39,265 nucleotides of DNA from a virus. Position 1 is the stretch's first letter; each line of letters opens with the position of its first letter. Under the pieces are notes generated by a model that saw only the letters and a program-made list of their open reading frames with translations, had not been told where the DNA came from and did not search any database. The stretch lies in IMG/VR virus record IMGVR_UViG_3300010397_000064, positions 1-39,265 of that record; one strand, written 5' to 3'. Below are positions 3,993 through 39,265 of the stretch, one piece after another. The position numbers were made by a program, and so were the translations under genes.

Positions 3993-4110
3993 CGAAGTTT
4001 GCTCGACGTGTAATAGGATATTCCCCTATAATGGTCCCGTCACCATAATCATGCAATGCGATCAATGCCGCGAAAGGACGCTACTTGAACTTCCCGGGAC
4101 CGGAAATTAA
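3952..4110 (+). CDS. Small zinc-ribbon protein, 52 aa
   Basis: ATG 3952 follows an excellent GGAGGAG site (3936-3942). The protein has CSTC near residue 17 and CDQC near residue 36 with typical zinc-ribbon spacing, and ends RTLLELPGTGN. The last 26 bases overlap the TTG start of the exonuclease gene. Function unknown. Confidence 0.65.
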   Translation: MTVPVNLRGNVVSNEVCSTCNRIFPYNGPVTIIMQCDQCRERTLLELPGTGN

Positions 4111-4861
4111 GAGGCCGCGAGTATTTATATTCGATCTGGAAACAACGCCTAATTTGGCTTATGTGTGGGGTAAATATGAACAGGATGTGATCGGGGATTT
4201 TGTTAAAGAGCGGATGATTATGTCGATAGCTTGGAAGTTTCTCGGGGAGAAGAAAGTACAGACGTTATCGATCCCAGACTTCTACGGATACAATAAACCG
4301 ATTACCGAGAACAAGAAATTAATCGTTCAGATCCATAAACTATTCTGTCTCGCGGATGTGCTGGTTGGACAGAACGGTGATAACTTCGATATTAAGATGG
4401 CTAATGCAGAGTTTGTTCAGTATGGGCTTAAACCACCACCTCCACAGAGAAGCGTGGACACGCTTAAAATAGCCAAGGCTAAGTTTCGATTTAACTCCAA
4501 CAAGCTCGATGATATGGCGGCTCGATTGGGTATTGGGCGTAAGATGAAAACTGGCGGGTTCGATCTCTGGAAGGCTTGTATGGAAGGCAAGAAAACTGCC
4601 TGGACTAAGATGATTAAATATAATAAGCGAGACGTTGAGATTCTTGAGAAGCTTTATATCCGGTTCCGTCCGTGGATGAAGAACCACCCGAACCTGAACA
4701 TGGCCGATGGATCCAGTGGATGTGTGTCGTGTAAGTCGGCGCACATAGCCCCGCGAGGCTGGTTCTTCACCCAGGTGGGGCGCAAACAGAGATATAAGTG
4801 CCTTGACTGCGGGCGCTGGATGTTGGGGAAGTTAGAAAGTTGGGGGGTGGCTATCCGATGA
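4085..4861 (+). CDS. DEDD-type 3'-5' exonuclease with C-terminal zinc ribbon
   Basis: A TTG start at 4085 has AAAGGA upstream. FDLETTP (about residues 16-22) gives the first DxE, VGQNGDNFD (about 94-102) the second Asp and YNKRDVEIL (about 179-187) the third, as in the RNase H-like DnaQ/PolB exonuclease fold. A CVSC...CLDC ribbon is appended near the C-terminus. It would degrade or proofread DNA 3' ends. No polymerase domain is fused or adjacent, so it acts alone or with a host polymerase. An RNase role is an alternative. Confidence 0.82.
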   Translation: MNFPGPEIKRPRVFIFDLETTPNLAYVWGKYEQDVIGDFVKERMIMSIAWKFLGEKKVQTLSIPDFYGYNKPITENKKLIVQIHKLFCLADVLVGQNGDNFDIKMANAEFVQYGLKPPPPQRSVDTLKIAKAKFRFNSNKLDDMAARLGIGRKMKTGGFDLWKACMEGKKTAWTKMIKYNKRDVEILEKLYIRFRPWMKNHPNLNMADGSSGCVSCKSAHIAPRGWFFTQVGRKQRYKCLDCGRWMLGKLESWGVAIR

Positions 4862-4983
4862 CATACGATGATTGGCTGACTACCGAAGATGATCGGCAGT
4901 ATTGCGAATGTGGTAAAGTTCTTCACGATGGTCAAGAAATATGCCCAAGATGTTTTAAAGAAAGTGTTGACCCAAGAGTTTAG
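4858..4983 (+). CDS. Zinc-ribbon protein, 41 aa
   Basis: ATG 4858 overlaps the exonuclease stop. MTYDDWLTTEDDRQYCECGK... has CECG near residue 16 and CPRC near 30, a minimal zinc knuckle with an acidic N-terminus. It is the last gene before the structured RNA at 4993. Function unknown. Confidence 0.65.
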   Translation: MTYDDWLTTEDDRQYCECGKVLHDGQEICPRCFKESVDPRV

Positions 4984-4992
4984 GTGGGTTAT

Positions 4993-5105
4993 GCTGTGGG
5001 TGTCGGAGTGATGACCGACAGCAAGAGCCTTTGTTAGAAGGCCTCCGCCCTGTGCAAAACATAGGGTCATCACCGGAGGCTTATTAACAAAGGCTCTTTT
5101 ATTTT
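4993..5105 (+). ncRNA. Structured RNA element with loop-bulge pairing, ending in terminator-like stem
   Basis: Hairpin 1: TGTCGG (5001-5006) pairs with CCGACA (5015-5020) around an 8-base loop. Hairpin 2: the 14-base arm 5023-5036 pairs perfectly with 5085-5098, continues through GCCTCCG (5041-5047) with CGGAGGC (5074-5080), and is capped by CCCTGTG (5048-5054) with CATAGGG (5060-5066, one G-U). The 7-base bulge TCATCAC (5067-5073) is exactly complementary to GTGATGA (5008-5014) in the loop of hairpin 1, a likely tertiary contact. TTTTATTTT follows, so the 3' stem could terminate transcription. I do not recognise a known riboswitch or ribozyme. Confidence 0.75.
5085..5105 (+). terminator. Intrinsic terminator-like 3' arm
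   Basis: The long stem closing at 5098 runs straight into TTTTATTTT, giving an intrinsic-terminator layout at the end of the upstream gene block. Whether it terminates, or is regulated by the loop-bulge pairing, is inference. Confidence 0.55.
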
Positions 5106-5117
5106 AAGGAGGAATTG

Positions 5118-5342
5118 ATGAGGTATAGAGTAATTAAAACATATGTCGATTTGCTTTGTTGGGAAAATGATATTGTTTTAATGAAAACAACATCTTATAT
5201 AGATGCCACGGAAAAGGCATCTTTGATGAATGATGGCTGTATATATAAAGTCCAAGAAAAAAATGGAATTTTTTCTTGGAAATTAAGAGAAGCATATCAA
5301 TACAAAAAAAGAATTGATCGTTGTGATTGTAGAACAATTTAA
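5118..5342 (+). CDS. AT-rich hypothetical protein, 74 aa
   Basis: ATG 5118 follows AAGGAGG (5106-5112). The protein MRYRVIKTYVDLLCWENDIVLM... is a small mixed fold with an N-terminal hydrophobic strand and a basic Cys-containing end (RCDCRTI). Base composition is clearly more AT-rich than the replication genes, which suggests separate acquisition. Function unknown. Confidence 0.65.
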   Translation: MRYRVIKTYVDLLCWENDIVLMKTTSYIDATEKASLMNDGCIYKVQEKNGIFSWKLREAYQYKKRIDRCDCRTI

Positions 5343-5353
5343 GGAGGATTAGG

Positions 5354-5569
5354 ATGAAAGGATTTTTTGTTTGGTTTTATTGTATGTATAGTATTTTGTT
5401 AAGTGGTGAGTTTGTTGTGGCCGCATTGTCAGAAAAGTGGGATGGCTTTACTCCACATCAAACAGAACCTTTGCCGTTTTGGCTTTTTTTATTTTTGTTT
5501 GGGTGGTTTTGTTTGTCTATTGCCAATGCTGTTATTTGTTTGCCTAAATGTATAAAGGAGGATTTTTAA
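5354..5569 (+). CDS. AT-rich two-helix membrane protein, 71 aa
   Basis: Starts MKGFFVWFYCMYSILL after AAGGAGG. Two hydrophobic helices (about residues 2-24 and 41-62) flank a polar loop. In the first 60 bases around its start (5341-5400) only 16 are G or C, against 27 of 60 at 6181-6240 in the next gene. With 5118-5342 it forms a moron-like pair behind the RNA/terminator. Its function might be superinfection exclusion or membrane modification, but that is a guess. Confidence 0.65.
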   Translation: MKGFFVWFYCMYSILLSGEFVVAALSEKWDGFTPHQTEPLPFWLFLFLFGWFCLSIANAVICLPKCIKEDF

Positions 5570-6424
5570 ATGAAACTCAGTAAAGGAAAACAGTCCAAGC
5601 CAGAGTTGATTTGGATCTATGGCGTGGATGGGATTGGGAAATCTTCATTTTGTGCGGATGCCCCGGACCCGTTCGTGATAGATACAGAAGATAGGACGGG
5701 TCACCTAAATGTTGACCGCGCAGTAGTGCATTCTTTGGAAGAATTTTATGAAGCTCTTGAATACTTTAAGAAATCCAAGAAATTAACGCTGGTCATTGAC
5801 TCGTTGGATTGGCTGGAACCAATGTTGATTGCTGTGGTTCTTAAAAAGTCGGGAAAGAAAAAGATTCAAGAAAAGAATGACTATGGCGAGGGCTTTACTT
5901 TATTGTTGGATGAATATCGAAACCTCATTCAAGCCTTAATGCCATTGCGTGGCGAACGCAATATCATCTTCACCGGCCATTCTGAGGTGAAGACGATTAA
6001 CGATCCTCAGACCGGACCTTTCGATAGGCACCAGCCAAAGTTATATAACAAGGCTTCTGCCCTGTTCCGCGAGTTCGTGGACTGCGTTCTATTCGCCAAC
6101 ACGGAAGTTTTGGTGAAAGAGAAAGAACGGCGTGGATTTAGCGATAACGTCCGGTGGCTGTTCACCGAACGTCGTCCGGCCTATGACGCTAAGAATAGTT
6201 TCGATCTGCCGGAGAAGTTCGAGCTTAAACAGCAAAACCCGTTTAAGTATTATATCGAACTCAAGGGAGTTGGAGCCAAGCCAGAGGATATCCGAAAGAC
6301 CATCGAAGCGTGGTTGCCAAAGTTGAATGACGAAGATCGTAAGTTGGTTGAGTCGAAGATGGTTGGTGCTGATGTGGATGGGCTGAAAAGGATTAAAAAT
6401 AAAATTGAGGAGATGTTTAAATGA
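5570..6424 (+). CDS. P-loop ATPase (phage RecA-like AAA_24 type)
   Basis: 284 residues with Walker A GVDGIGKSS (18-26) and Walker B TLVIDSLDW (about 75-83), then GHSEVKTINDP and a conserved-looking tail. The layout matches the phage nucleotide-binding family often found beside an ssDNA-binding protein and YqaJ exonuclease. It probably acts in recombination or strand annealing as an ATP-driven DNA-binding factor. AAGGAGG precedes the ATG, and the stop overlaps the next start. Confidence 0.82.
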   Translation: MKLSKGKQSKPELIWIYGVDGIGKSSFCADAPDPFVIDTEDRTGHLNVDRAVVHSLEEFYEALEYFKKSKKLTLVIDSLDWLEPMLIAVVLKKSGKKKIQEKNDYGEGFTLLLDEYRNLIQALMPLRGERNIIFTGHSEVKTINDPQTGPFDRHQPKLYNKASALFREFVDCVLFANTEVLVKEKERRGFSDNVRWLFTERRPAYDAKNSFDLPEKFELKQQNPFKYYIELKGVGAKPEDIRKTIEAWLPKLNDEDRKLVESKMVGADVDGLKRIKNKIEEMFK

Positions 6425-6864
6425 GGAACGGTTCGTTTAAAGGAGTTGTGCTAGATTATGGTATTAACAAGGCCCAGACTGGAACGCTGTCTGTGTTCTT
6501 GCGTTGCGCCATGGAAGTGGATGGGAACCTGGAGGAACTTACTTGGTTCGGGTATTTGACCGATAAGGCCAAAGCCAGGACCATCGAGACTCTGTACAAG
6601 ATCGGGTTCAATGACGATATCGAAGGGCTTGCGAAGGGCAAGGAATCTAATGCGATTAACACGGGTACGTCTCTGATGTTTGTGGTCGAATCCGAGGTCT
6701 ACGAAGGCAAGGACCGGTTCAAGATTAAGTGGATTAATCTGCCTGGCGAGACTGGCGGCATTGAACGGCTCGATGCCGTTTCCGCGAAGGTCGAGTTGGA
6801 GAAGTTGAAGGCTGATTTTCTGTCGAATAAGCCAGTGATGGCGAAGAAGAAGTTGTCATTATAA
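6421..6864 (+). CDS. Probable single-stranded DNA-binding protein
   Basis: 147 residues (MRNGSFKGVVLDYGINKAQTG...), strand-rich in the manner of OB-fold or DUF669-like phage proteins, with a basic C-terminus (AKKKLSL) rather than the acidic tail of host SSB. The position between the P-loop ATPase and YqaJ exonuclease is the standard place for the ssDNA-binding partner. The assignment rests mostly on context. Confidence 0.55.
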   Translation: MRNGSFKGVVLDYGINKAQTGTLSVFLRCAMEVDGNLEELTWFGYLTDKAKARTIETLYKIGFNDDIEGLAKGKESNAINTGTSLMFVVESEVYEGKDRFKIKWINLPGETGGIERLDAVSAKVELEKLKADFLSNKPVMAKKKLSL

Positions 6865-26648: not shown

Positions 26649-26707
26649 TAAAGCCTCCTCAAAAATAAACGGGGGAGGGGATGCCTCCCCCGCCACAACT
26701 CCGTTTT

Positions 26708-31588: not shown

Positions 31589-32326
31589 CTATATCTCCCT
31601 TGGTCCCGCGTCTCTGTCTCCAGGCTTACGCAGACCGGCCACGATCCGATCCTGCCACGTCTCAACATACGGCTTCTCAACAACCGGTGGGTCGAATATC
31701 GGCCCCATCCGTTCCCTACGTACCCAATTCGCGATATACAAAGCCGACACCCTATCATCGTACTTACCGTGAACGGCTTCGGGCCTACCAGTCTTCGCGT
31801 TCCTTTTAAAGAACATCAACTGCGTCGACGTATCCTTATCGTTCACAAACACAGCCCGCTTACGTTCTGCTGGGATACCCGACATACTCCAACCTATATC
31901 CCGTTGGAGCCAGTCTATGGCCGTCTGGCGATATTTCCTGGCGTCCCAGCCCCACTCGGTCGCCCCACCTCGGAAGCTAATCAGGTTCCGATCATGGGCA
32001 TAAATATTCGGGTACTGTACCTCAATCAATTTATTGATTATGGTCATGCCGTGATATTCCTTCTCCACGGCAATCTCACACGGCATTTTCTTATGAGCGT
32101 AAGCGTGACCAGCCCCAATCACTCCACCGGCCATTTCCTCTGGGGTAAACTTACCCGCCATAATCGCGACCTGTTTACCAGTGTGAATACTCAGAATCGT
32201 GGCTACGGATTCGTTTGCGCCCAACTTACCGGATGCCGTATCCACTCCCATGCAATATAACTGGTCTGGATCTGGCTGTTCAAATACGTGCCAGCGACCA
32301 CCGCCGACTTTTACGGGGTTAGGCAC
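31589..32326 (-). CDS. Terminase large subunit, nuclease half, 245 aa
   Basis: GTG start at 32326 overlapping the upstream stop. GVDTASG (Asp about 29), IAVEKEYHG (Glu about 88) and KYDDRVSAL (Asp about 190-191) are the three acidic sites of the RNase H-fold terminase nuclease that cuts packaged DNA. There is no P-loop: the ATPase half is a separate gene at 33082-34011. The two gene products must work together on the portal. Confidence 0.82.
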   Translation of the reverse strand: MPNPVKVGGGRWHVFEQPDPDQLYCMGVDTASGKLGANESVATILSIHTGKQVAIMAGKFTPEEMAGGVIGAGHAYAHKKMPCEIAVEKEYHGMTIINKLIEVQYPNIYAHDRNLISFRGGATEWGWDARKYRQTAIDWLQRDIGWSMSGIPAERKRAVFVNDKDTSTQLMFFKRNAKTGRPEAVHGKYDDRVSALYIANWVRRERMGPIFDPPVVEKPYVETWQDRIVAGLRKPGDRDAGPREI

Positions 32327-32891
32327 TGCCGGGGGTACTCAGCCCACGGAAAATCACACCGCCACTTGCCTCTCGCATAGATGTTCCACAGGTTTCACAA
32401 ACATGATCTCCGGCCCAAATTCTTTCTACTTTTTTCAATTTATCTCGGCAATCATTATTCCAACACTGAAACGTGACCATCGGTGTTCTGGGTTTATCTG
32501 CCACAGCTTCGCGGGCCGCTCGTCGATCTTCGTCCAACCGCTTCTCATAGGCTTCAATCTCGGCATCATCAAACATATACTTACCCTTCCACTCCGATTC
32601 CTCTAACACGCATCCAATATCCTCTGACCTGGTACACACAACGTCTTTCCCAATAACCTCAAACTGAATCGCCCCAAACGATTCCCAAACAATCACATCA
32701 TCCTTTTTCACGATATTCGGAATCCACTCGCCAGTCCTGAGTAAAATACCGGGGCCAGCGCTAATAACCTTACCAACATTTAACTTCGTTTTCCCATTAT
32801 CCACGGCAGACGTAGCCAGGATAATCTTTCCGGACGTGGACTCCGGCATATACGCCACGCGGCAAATAACCCTATCATTCACAGCGATCAT
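32319..32891 (-). CDS. GroES-like cochaperonin with C-terminal zinc ribbon
   Basis: Residues 5-97 align by eye with GroES: mobile loop ESTSGKIIL (17-25, the IIL matching the IVL tripeptide that contacts GroEL), GKVISAGPG (40-48), VKKDDVIVWESFG (61-73) and SEDIGCVLE (89-97). A charged helix (about 108-132) and a zinc ribbon (Cys 143, 148, 165, 168) follow, absent from host GroES. It probably caps host GroEL to fold capsid or terminase parts. ATGA overlap with the upstream gene. Confidence 0.78.
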   Translation of the reverse strand: MIAVNDRVICRVAYMPESTSGKIILATSAVDNGKTKLNVGKVISAGPGILLRTGEWIPNIVKKDDVIVWESFGAIQFEVIGKDVVCTRSEDIGCVLEESEWKGKYMFDDAEIEAYEKRLDEDRRAAREAVADKPRTPMVTFQCWNNDCRDKLKKVERIWAGDHVCETCGTSMREASGGVIFRGLSTPGSA

Positions 32892-33085
32892 AACCCAAAC
32901 CTTTCCATTTTAAACTTTTGATAAGCTTCTTCGGACTCAAAATCGCTGGCATTTTCTGCGGCCCAAATCGCCTCATCAAAATACTTTTTAACATATTTAC
33001 GAAAACCCTTAATCCATTGTGGGCGACAGCTTAACTGCCAATCCCTACACGCCTTATCCACAATACGATCAACCGCCGTTTTCAT
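32888..33085 (-). CDS. Hypothetical protein inside the terminase locus, 65 aa
   Basis: MKTAVDRIVDKACRDWQLSC... is helical, basic at first and acidic at the end (SDFESEEAYQKFKMERFG). Coupled by overlaps to the ATPase-half gene and the cochaperonin gene. Function unknown. Confidence 0.65.
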   Translation of the reverse strand: MKTAVDRIVDKACRDWQLSCRPQWIKGFRKYVKKYFDEAIWAAENASDFESEEAYQKFKMERFGL

Positions 33086-34011
33086 ATAAACTCCATCTCC
33101 TCGAATTTCTCTTTCTTCGCCCGATTCATATACGTGTCAATCGCCTGTGTGGAAAATATCGACTGGCCAGATATCGGGATATATTTACCGTCAAACCGGA
33201 CAGCCGCCTCCTCTTCACTCCTCAGCGCCGTTCTGCGTCTATGCTCTGATATCTCATCCGGATCCAGCATCGGATTTTCTTCCATCCGAAGATCCTTACC
33301 AACCAACTCAATAAACTTAGACTCCCTGGACCCTTCTAAAACCGGAGTTATAATCCGGTCAAACATCCACGAAATCCCATGCTCCCACATCGTCGCGGCA
33401 ATTAATACCTGTGCCCTGGTATCGATGGTTCTAACGAGTGCAGAATCGAAAATATCTTCCTGGGGTTCTTCGTCGAAGGCGAGCCTATGGATCTTCGACC
33501 CTTCATAGGACGCTCGGCCAGCTTCCTGAGATTTAAACACAATCTCCGACCAATCGTTCGGTCCACATTTAACATAAATCGTTTTTCGGTTTTCGTTATA
33601 CTCCCACCTACTCCCGCTCGGCCCAAGCTTCTCTCGAAACTTCGGGTACAAAACCTGTGGTATTTTGTCGTTCTTCTCCACCGATATCCAGATTATGGCG
33701 TTCCTGGGGGTCTTCACCGTGGGGTGCCTCCCCTGGGCGAACCACGTCAGATCCGCCGTCAACCAGTCCGATTTCCCCATGCGGTTCGACGATATCATCG
33801 CCAGGATTTTTTTCTTGCTGTAGAACAGTGGATTCTGGTACGAGAACGGGATAAACAGGCTCATCGGGTCGATCATCTGCATCATCCGTAGGTGTTCCTG
33901 AATCCTCGCCAGTTCCAACATCTTTTCCTGGGGACTCAAGGATTCGAGCGACCAATCTTTGGACTGCGTTATTTGGCCATCTTTTAGCGTCTTCAACGAT
34001 TTCCCAGGCAC
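33082..34011 (-). CDS. Terminase large subunit, ATPase half, 309 aa
   Basis: GTG start at 34011 with AAGGAG upstream. Walker A-like SSNRMGKSD (74-82) and Walker B RLAFDEEP (176-183) followed by the coupling region LIAATMWEHG. The end (FDGKYIPISGQSIF...) is where the nuclease domain normally begins, but the frame stops after EEMEFI. It powers DNA translocation. The first 404 bases also encode the end of the preceding gene in another frame. Confidence 0.88.
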   Translation of the reverse strand: MPGKSLKTLKDGQITQSKDWSLESLSPQEKMLELARIQEHLRMMQMIDPMSLFIPFSYQNPLFYSKKKILAMISSNRMGKSDWLTADLTWFAQGRHPTVKTPRNAIIWISVEKNDKIPQVLYPKFREKLGPSGSRWEYNENRKTIYVKCGPNDWSEIVFKSQEAGRASYEGSKIHRLAFDEEPQEDIFDSALVRTIDTRAQVLIAATMWEHGISWMFDRIITPVLEGSRESKFIELVGKDLRMEENPMLDPDEISEHRRRTALRSEEEAAVRFDGKYIPISGQSIFSTQAIDTYMNRAKKEKFEEMEFI

Positions 34012-37398: not shown

Positions 37399-37893
37399 AT
37401 GAAAGAACTCGAAAAGCTGAAAAAGTTAAGCGCCTGTTCAGGTGCTTTAGAGTACGTGGAAACCAAGAAAACGTTTACTGAGGCTTGGAAAGATTGTGAG
37501 CGTGGCAATTGGATGCTCTGGTTGATCGGAAAGACCGTTGGAAAACCTGGCGATAAGTCTAGGCGTAAATTGGTATTGGCGGCTTGTGACTGTGCCGAGC
37601 TGTCTTTGAAATATGTCAAAAAAGGCGAGACCAGGCCAGCGGAAGCTATTAAGGTTGCTAGGGCTTGGGCCAATGGCGAAAAGGTAACGTTGGATGAGGT
37701 TAAAGCCGCCGCCGACGACGCCTACTTCGCCGCCTACCACGCCGCCGCCGACGCCGCCTACGCCGCCTACGCCGCCGACGCCGACGACGCCGCCGACGCC
37801 GCCGACGCCGCCGACGACGCCGCCAGATATAAGGTATTAAAACAATGCGCTGAAATTGTTCGGAAGTATTATCCGAAACCGCCTAAATTTTAA
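37399..37893 (+). CDS. Imm-5-like putative immunity family protein, 164 aa
   Basis: The first 100 residues match the layout I know for the Imm-5-like family: EAWKDCERGNWMLWLIGK, KLVLAACDCAELSLKYV, RPAEAIKVARAWANGE and VTLDEVKAAADDAY. An Ala/Asp/Tyr tract of about 45 residues (110-146) then leads into KVLKQCAEIVRKYYPKPP. The tract is encoded by GCC-GAC-GCC-GCC repeats. Family members occur in phages and bacteria. The immunity name is historical and the role in a phage is unknown. Confidence 0.72.
   Translation: MKELEKLKKLSACSGALEYVETKKTFTEAWKDCERGNWMLWLIGKTVGKPGDKSRRKLVLAACDCAELSLKYVKKGETRPAEAIKVARAWANGEKVTLDEVKAAADDAYFAAYHAAADAAYAAYAADADDAADAADAADDAARYKVLKQCAEIVRKYYPKPPKF
37710..37826 (+). 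repeat. GCC/GAC/TAC codon repeat in the Imm-5-like gene
   Basis: Near-pure GCCGCC, GACGCC and TACGCC units differ sharply from the surrounding AT-balanced coding sequence, so the repeat has probably expanded by slippage or recombination. Confidence 0.75.
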
Positions 37894-38634: not shown

Positions 38635-39143
38635 TGGGTTGTTTCGCTGTTGGTACAGAGGTTATGTGTATTGCCGGTTGTGCGCAAGGGTATTCTGGAA
38701 AGGTGATAGAAGATTTCGGTGGATTGATTGACCCGGAAAGCGGGGCCTGTTTTGAAGATCTAACGGGTGAGAGGCATTGGGCGAGTCGTGAAAATTTAAA
38801 GGAGGTTAGGATTATGAGTGAGCCTAAAACGCTGATGGTTAATGACGTTAAATACGTGCGCGAGGATTCGATGAATTTGAATCTGAGTAAGGACATCCGA
38901 ATCTGTATTTTGCAACGCGGTTGGGTGGCCGTTGGTCGATTCATCCAGAAAGATTCGGATTGCGTTTTGGAAACGGCCTCGGTTATTCGTCGGTGGGGAA
39001 CATCGAATGGATTGGGGGAGTTAATTTCGGGTCCGTTGCCAGACACAACGCTAGATAAGTGCGGAACGCTTCGTTTTCACGAATTGGCTATTGTTGCTAC
39101 TCTGGATTGCGAGGCTGGAAAATGGGAAAAACACCTGAAGTGA
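38634..39143 (+). CDS. Two-part hypothetical protein, 169 aa, with internal start
   Basis: The frame from ATG 38634 has an N-terminal SH3-like piece (about 1-58) and a second part from Met 61 (MSEPKTLMVNDVKYV). The latter has its own strong AAAGGAGG site (38798-38805) at the right distance from ATG 38814. The second part (ILQRGWVAVGRF, IRRWGTSNGLGEL, CGTLRFHELAIVATLDC) resembles a small family I have seen next to Gly-Tyr-repeat genes. Both the long form and the 109-residue short form may be made. Confidence 0.68.
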   Translation: MGCFAVGTEVMCIAGCAQGYSGKVIEDFGGLIDPESGACFEDLTGERHWASRENLKEVRIMSEPKTLMVNDVKYVREDSMNLNLSKDIRICILQRGWVAVGRFIQKDSDCVLETASVIRRWGTSNGLGELISGPLPDTTLDKCGTLRFHELAIVATLDCEAGKWEKHLK

Positions 39144-39265
39144 TGTCTAGCCTGGGAGACGAGGCTCAGGCTTCGTTGTCCGGGTACGGGTACGGGTACG
39201 GGGACGGGTACGGGGACGGGTACGGGGACGGGTACGGGTACGGGTACGGGGACGGGGACGGGGAC
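39143..39265 (+). CDS. Gly-Tyr/Gly-Asp repeat protein, 5' part
   Basis: ATG 39143 overlaps the upstream stop as TGATG. MSSLGDEAQASLS leads into GYGYGYGDGYGDG... until the window ends at base 39265. It continues at base 1 and stops at 112. The N-terminus is ordinary; the rest is the hexamer repeat. No function known. Confidence 0.7.
   Translation, partial: MSSLGDEAQASLSGYGYGYGDGYGDGYGDGYGYGYGDGDGD
39182..39265 (+). repeat. GGGTAC/GGGGAC hexamer tandem repeat, right contig end
   Basis: Fourteen perfect hexamers to the last base, matching the array at 1-109 in orientation and frame. The terminal 13 bases (39253-39265) equal bases 1-13. Confidence 0.9.

Follow-up and report, generated by a model that had tools for sequence, protein, structure and literature searches.

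An isolated, strongly folded RNA element with terminator-like anatomy between early genes of a tailed phage

Several described RNAs resemble the element reported here in one feature or another. In intrinsic terminators and attenuators, a G+C-bearing stem runs straight into a U-tract, ahead of a Shine-Dalgarno site and a start codon. In the early mRNA of phage T7, the R sites are long bulged hairpins between early genes that are cut by RNase III. In the phi29-type prohead RNA (pRNA), a hairpin loop and the bulge of a second hairpin pair between molecules, by which a dimer or ring is formed. The lambda OOP RNA is a short RNA of the replication region that has its own promoter and a terminator end and is antisense to cII (PMC12197685). 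The put RNA of HK022, an early phage transcript of about 70-100 nt with two adjacent stem-loops, suppresses termination by acting on RNA polymerase, and its structure involves a triplex, not loop-bulge kissing (PMC9378689).

The present element belongs to an IMG/VR tailed-phage contig with a P22-like portal. The whole stretch of DNA analysed, 39,265 nucleotides, is referred to as the window. The element occupies the interval between the end of a 41-aa frame (4983) and the start of the next gene (5118). The features of the locus are as follows.

4085-4861, DnaQ/PolB-type exonuclease, upstream of the element
4858-4983, plus strand, upstream 41-aa reading frame with CxC...CPxC; stop codon just 5' of the RNA
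4967-4995, plus strand, promoter-like TTGACC-17-TATGCT, sigma70-like (consensus scan, 9/12 matches)
4992-5023, plus strand, alternative 5' hairpin TGCTGT/ACAGCA, predicted to supplant hairpin 1 in RNAs whose 5' end is 4993 or further upstream
5001-5020, plus strand, hairpin 1, TGTCGG (5001-5006) with CCGACA (5015-5020), 6 bp
5023-5098, plus strand, long hairpin of 15+9+7 bp, from sequence and folding
5067-5073, plus strand, 3' bulge TCATCAC, complementary to loop positions 5008-5014
5097-5105, plus strand, U-tract TTTTATTTT, 8 T in 9 bases, in the manner of an intrinsic-terminator tail
5106-5342, plus strand, small gene 1, AT-rich, 74 aa, Shine-Dalgarno AAGGAGG at 5106-5112, ATG at 5118
5354-5569, plus strand, small gene 2, AT-rich, 71 aa, with its own AAGGAGG

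Re-reading of the sequence bore out the 6-bp hairpin, the 14-bp outer stem and the 7-bp apical stem described in the first-pass annotation, together with their coordinates. The loop of hairpin 1 is AGTGATGA (5007-5014), that is, A5007 followed by GTGATGA at 5008-5014. The outer stem of the long hairpin is a perfect 14 bp (5023-5036/5085-5098), or 15 bp (5023-5037/5084-5098) when a G-U pair is counted, and an A5038.A5083 mismatch separates it from the inner stem (5039-5047/5074-5082). The inner stem had been given as 7 bp; it is present, and its length is 9 bp once G-U and A-U pairs are counted. The apical stem (5048-5054/5060-5066) includes one G-U among its 7 bp. No direct repeats were found in 4840-5600.

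The folding energy of the element is far outside the range of chance. Its minimum free energy is -62.1 kcal/mol compared to -35.3 +/- 3.9 for shuffled sequences (z -6.8), and none of 200 shuffles was as stable. A perfect short-span inverted repeat of at least 14 bp occurs in the window at this site only, and in none of 100 first-order resamples. These results sustain the initial claim that such a fold is improbable by chance. With the exception of a low-complexity GCC-repeat gene, whose sequence at about 37700-37830 gives the sole more stable fold within the window, the element is the most stable 110-nt segment. The GCC-repeat stretch (37694-37840) is an Ala/Asp-rich tract within a 164-aa frame at 37399-37893. 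Among all U-tract sites of the window with an adjoining hairpin end, on either strand, the present hairpin is the strongest. The minus-strand RNA of the element folds more weakly (-54.5) and has no U-tract. On the minus strand, 26669-26695 forms another strong hairpin of terminator type, CGGGGGAGGCATCCCCTCCCCCG with TTTATTTTT directly behind it.

The stable stem, ending at 5098, runs straight into the U-tract at 5097-5105, as in an intrinsic terminator, and a hairpin and U-tract directly before a Shine-Dalgarno site read as attenuator-like anatomy. With moderate confidence, 5001-5105 is regarded as an intercistronic, leaky intrinsic terminator/attenuator with an unusually long bulged stem in an early operon. 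Polymerase would pause at TTTTATTTT while the 15-bp outer stem closes, and most transcripts would stop near 5100-5105. A fraction would read on into the two AT-rich genes and then into the recombination/replication genes. The Shine-Dalgarno site of small gene 1 begins at 5106, the base right after the U-tract; because the two abut, the mRNA of this gene would apparently need to run through the hairpin, and since there is no room for a promoter in between, expression of gene 1 would come via the hairpin. If the element terminates, it is a control point within a one-direction phage replication operon and rations two small genes of no known family. A terminator was among the functions first suggested, and the anatomy (stem, U-tract and position) supports it well; termination itself is what we infer from that anatomy. 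Compared with ordinary intrinsic terminators and attenuators, the element differs in its long bulged 15+9+7 bp stem, its separate 5' hairpin and the absence of any competing antiterminator helix in full-length folding; this absence counts in favour of the terminator reading. Against that reading, a strong stop in a replication block that runs in one direction could be passed only by readthrough or antitermination, and a search of the gene content gave no antiterminator gene. Also against it, very stable or very long stems are atypical of sRNA terminators; Morita et al. reported that when the terminator stem is extended, the U tail becomes shorter and Hfq no longer binds (PMC5558911). In the related phage L089, a Y-shaped RNA with a long imperfect stem and a T-rich tail, TTTTTCTTT, lies at about 6480-6560 (+), behind the primase region; by analogy, the hairpin near L089:6548 may be counted in favour of the terminator reading.

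The promoter-like site would place the RNA start at about 5002 (range 5001-5003), where hairpin 1 begins. By an estimate from the scan, a start this close to hairpin 1 (within 3 nt) has a chance of roughly 0.5%; the coincidence was noticed post hoc. The region has about one plus-strand match of like quality per 1.5 kb, and promoter-like matches are not enriched (15 vs 15.5 expected from shuffles). The match is weak on its own because such matches sit at background density; nevertheless, its placement at hairpin 1 is suggestive of a separate RNA start. If this promoter is used, the terminated product would be a discrete two-hairpin RNA of about 103 nt. Such an RNA, reaching from the promoter match to the U-tract, is plausible from the sequence, and to this extent the earlier small-RNA idea is retained. 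It would be similar to OOP in being short, and in its putative own promoter, its replication region and its terminator end. Unlike OOP, the element is intergenic, and no antisense target was seen. The put RNA is comparable in size, in its two adjacent stem-loops and in its early transcription. However, the element has no sequence likeness to put and ends in a U-tract. In a search for put sites in phage records at E<=10, each of the matches listed covered about 20% of the element or less. A put-like antiterminator was dropped for want of likeness.

According to predicted folding with varied 5' ends, the 5' part of the element has two folds. The long hairpin forms with a pair probability of at least 0.999 in all contexts tested, whatever the 5' end. 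Hairpin 1 is dominant when the RNA starts at or after 4995, with its loop 96-99% unpaired. When the RNA starts at or before 4993, the 4992-5023 hairpin is predicted, and the loop bases are about 40% unpaired. Since the fold flips with the 5' end, the two-hairpin structure originally drawn fits a short transcript and not upstream readthrough: its long hairpin is predicted in every context tested, and its hairpin 1 is not the fold predicted for transcripts begun upstream of 4994. Hairpin 1 is also predicted when 4970-4996 is forced single-stranded. In this model, a ribosome at the upstream stop codon that holds 4970-4996 unpaired might favour hairpin 1.

The loop GTGATGA had been described as perfectly complementary to the bulge TCATCAC, and the match is exact over 7 nt. 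It extends to 9 nt (GTGATGACC / GGTCATCAC) at the cost of stem bases. For a random 8-nt loop and 7-nt bulge, 7 Watson-Crick pairs have a probability of about 1e-4, or 2e-3 with G-U pairs. Leaving any kissing penalty aside, the loop-bulge duplex is worth about -7.7 kcal/mol. Complementarity by itself does not show tertiary pairing. To reach the bulge, some 25 base-pair levels above the base of the stem, hairpin 1 offers 6 bp and a 2-nt linker. According to a rigid A-form model, which is crude in that bending and A.A mismatch details are left out, the contact can be reached in cis only if 3-4 pairs at the base of the outer stem are open: about 4 for the full 7 bp, 3 for a contact of 5-6 pairs, and 2 for one of 4 pairs. 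As modelled, the initial picture of a compact RNA held in cis by a static loop-bulge contact is unlikely, and the refolding predicted for transcripts from upstream also speaks against it. The contact could instead be made while the RNA is being transcribed, in trans, or as a competitor of closure at the terminator base.

There is a substantial chance, somewhat short of even, that the match is a coincidence, or a protein-binding DNA repeat, atop a plain terminator; this is compatible with the terminator reading. The match was found post hoc, and 9-mers like GTGATGACC, with one mismatch allowed, are mildly enriched (13 in the window vs 7.4 expected, with as many in 2 of 100 shuffles). However, the exact GTGATGACC 9-mer occurs elsewhere in the window at only two positions, 16980 and 37141, the latter within a listed reading frame.

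The main rival to the terminator/attenuator is RNase III processing. The element would be an mRNA stabiliser, with a cut in the roughly 24-bp stem giving separate stable early mRNAs. The 15+9 bp stem has internal asymmetry and a compatible length, and its position, with a stop codon on one side and a Shine-Dalgarno site on the other, midway along an early operon read in one direction, agrees with the long bulged hairpins between early genes of T7. However, the element adds a U-tract and a 5' hairpin, which RNase III processing neither needs nor explains, and no similar hairpin is found between other early genes of the window. On balance, this explanation is unlikely.

A switchable attenuator is a more doubtful proposal. 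A co-transcriptional kiss of 5008-5014 with 5067-5073 would keep the basal stem open and permit readthrough, while basal closure would break the kiss and bring about termination. Whether the loop is free would depend on the 5' end of the RNA or on a ribosome at the stop codon upstream. In the rigid model the cis kiss and the last 3-4 basal pairs are mutually exclusive, hairpin 1 is predicted to displace the 4992-5023 hairpin with a start at or after 4995 or with 4970-4996 blocked, and the 7-nt match has a probability of about 1e-4. However, the duplex at about -7.7 kcal/mol is far below the 15-bp outer stem, and the exclusion depends on a crude rigid model. That the kissing loop sterically blocks the last terminator pairs, with loop availability governed by which 5' fold is adopted (hairpin 1 or the 4992-5023 hairpin), is highly improbable; the support for a kissing switch consists of geometry and complementarity, and ends there. 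If the exclusion were true, the element would be a compact terminator switch that works without protein.

It is improbable that the element is a phage small RNA acting in trans, with its loop or bulge paired to a target or to a second copy (dimer or ring): the promoter match and terminator bracket an RNA of about 103 nt, and the mutually complementary, exposed loop and bulge suit intermolecular better than intramolecular pairing, but no target was identified and no Rfam family or relative was found. By analogy to phi29-type pRNA, the loop and the bulge of the second hairpin could pair between molecules; unlike pRNA, the element has no Rfam match, comes from a phage with a P22-like portal, and differs in helix position and order.

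Other identities were considered and dropped. A type III toxin-antitoxin RNA was rejected, as there are no tandem direct repeats and the downstream genes have no ToxN-type endoribonuclease match. A tRNA or tmRNA identity was also abandoned. For C/D-box RNA, the loop GUGAUGA resembles a C box; Rfam gave only a chance match, and inspection found no CTGA in 4993-5105.

Searches for relatives, in collections that may lack near-identical records, gave no homologue of the element in any of three sets: phages and plasmids (blastn), IMG/VR and GTDB genomes (exact loop/bulge patterns), and about 1.3 Mb of related loci plus 48 records (covariance model R1, of low power for diverged copies, as the present sequence was its only source). 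Rfam covariance models, including that of the phage prohead RNA, gave nothing at gathering thresholds and only chance matches up to E=10. One pattern match (L003) sits inside a 1196-aa reading frame and was rejected as chance. Another (L294) has TCATCAC 51 nt downstream without a matching long hairpin or U-tract, and was likewise set aside. The nearest relatives are L009/G001 (exonuclease 56%, Sak4 52%) and L089/G002 (primase 53%), and an RNA of this kind is absent from the equivalent junctions in both. Behind the exonuclease of G001, a short gap leads to another gene, and Sak4 comes after the primase. Because gene order differs in G001, the RNA and the two AT-rich genes of the window are located at a rearranged module boundary. 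The suggestion of a new regulatory RNA class is not upheld, as the searches gave no homologue that could show covariation and no second copy. The element is isolated and strongly folded, with no relatives found, and as a terminator/attenuator it would be ordinary in kind.

The gene map agrees with the location first described, between the exonuclease block and two AT-rich genes. Downstream of the two small genes, the order is a Sak4-like recombinase, a 147-aa protein, a YqaJ/RecE-like exonuclease, a helicase and a primase. Family searches gave no match for the 147-aa protein, and neither a family match nor a database relative for small genes 1 and 2. By inspection, the product of small gene 2 has two hydrophobic stretches. 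The two small genes, with their strong Shine-Dalgarno sites, form an island of 32% GC at the module boundary (5106-5569), which looks like a recent insertion. Within small gene 1, a perfect 12-bp hairpin at 5246-5285 is terminator-like on the minus strand. Elsewhere in the window, a phage protein with a GroES-like Cpn10 domain is encoded at 32319-32891 (-). A terminase N-terminal domain is encoded in a 309-aa frame at 33082-34011 (-); the nuclease half did not turn up in this frame, and the terminase may be split or frameshifted. Additionally, a frame running off the window end (39059-39265) encodes repeated Gly-Tyr-Gly-Asp units.
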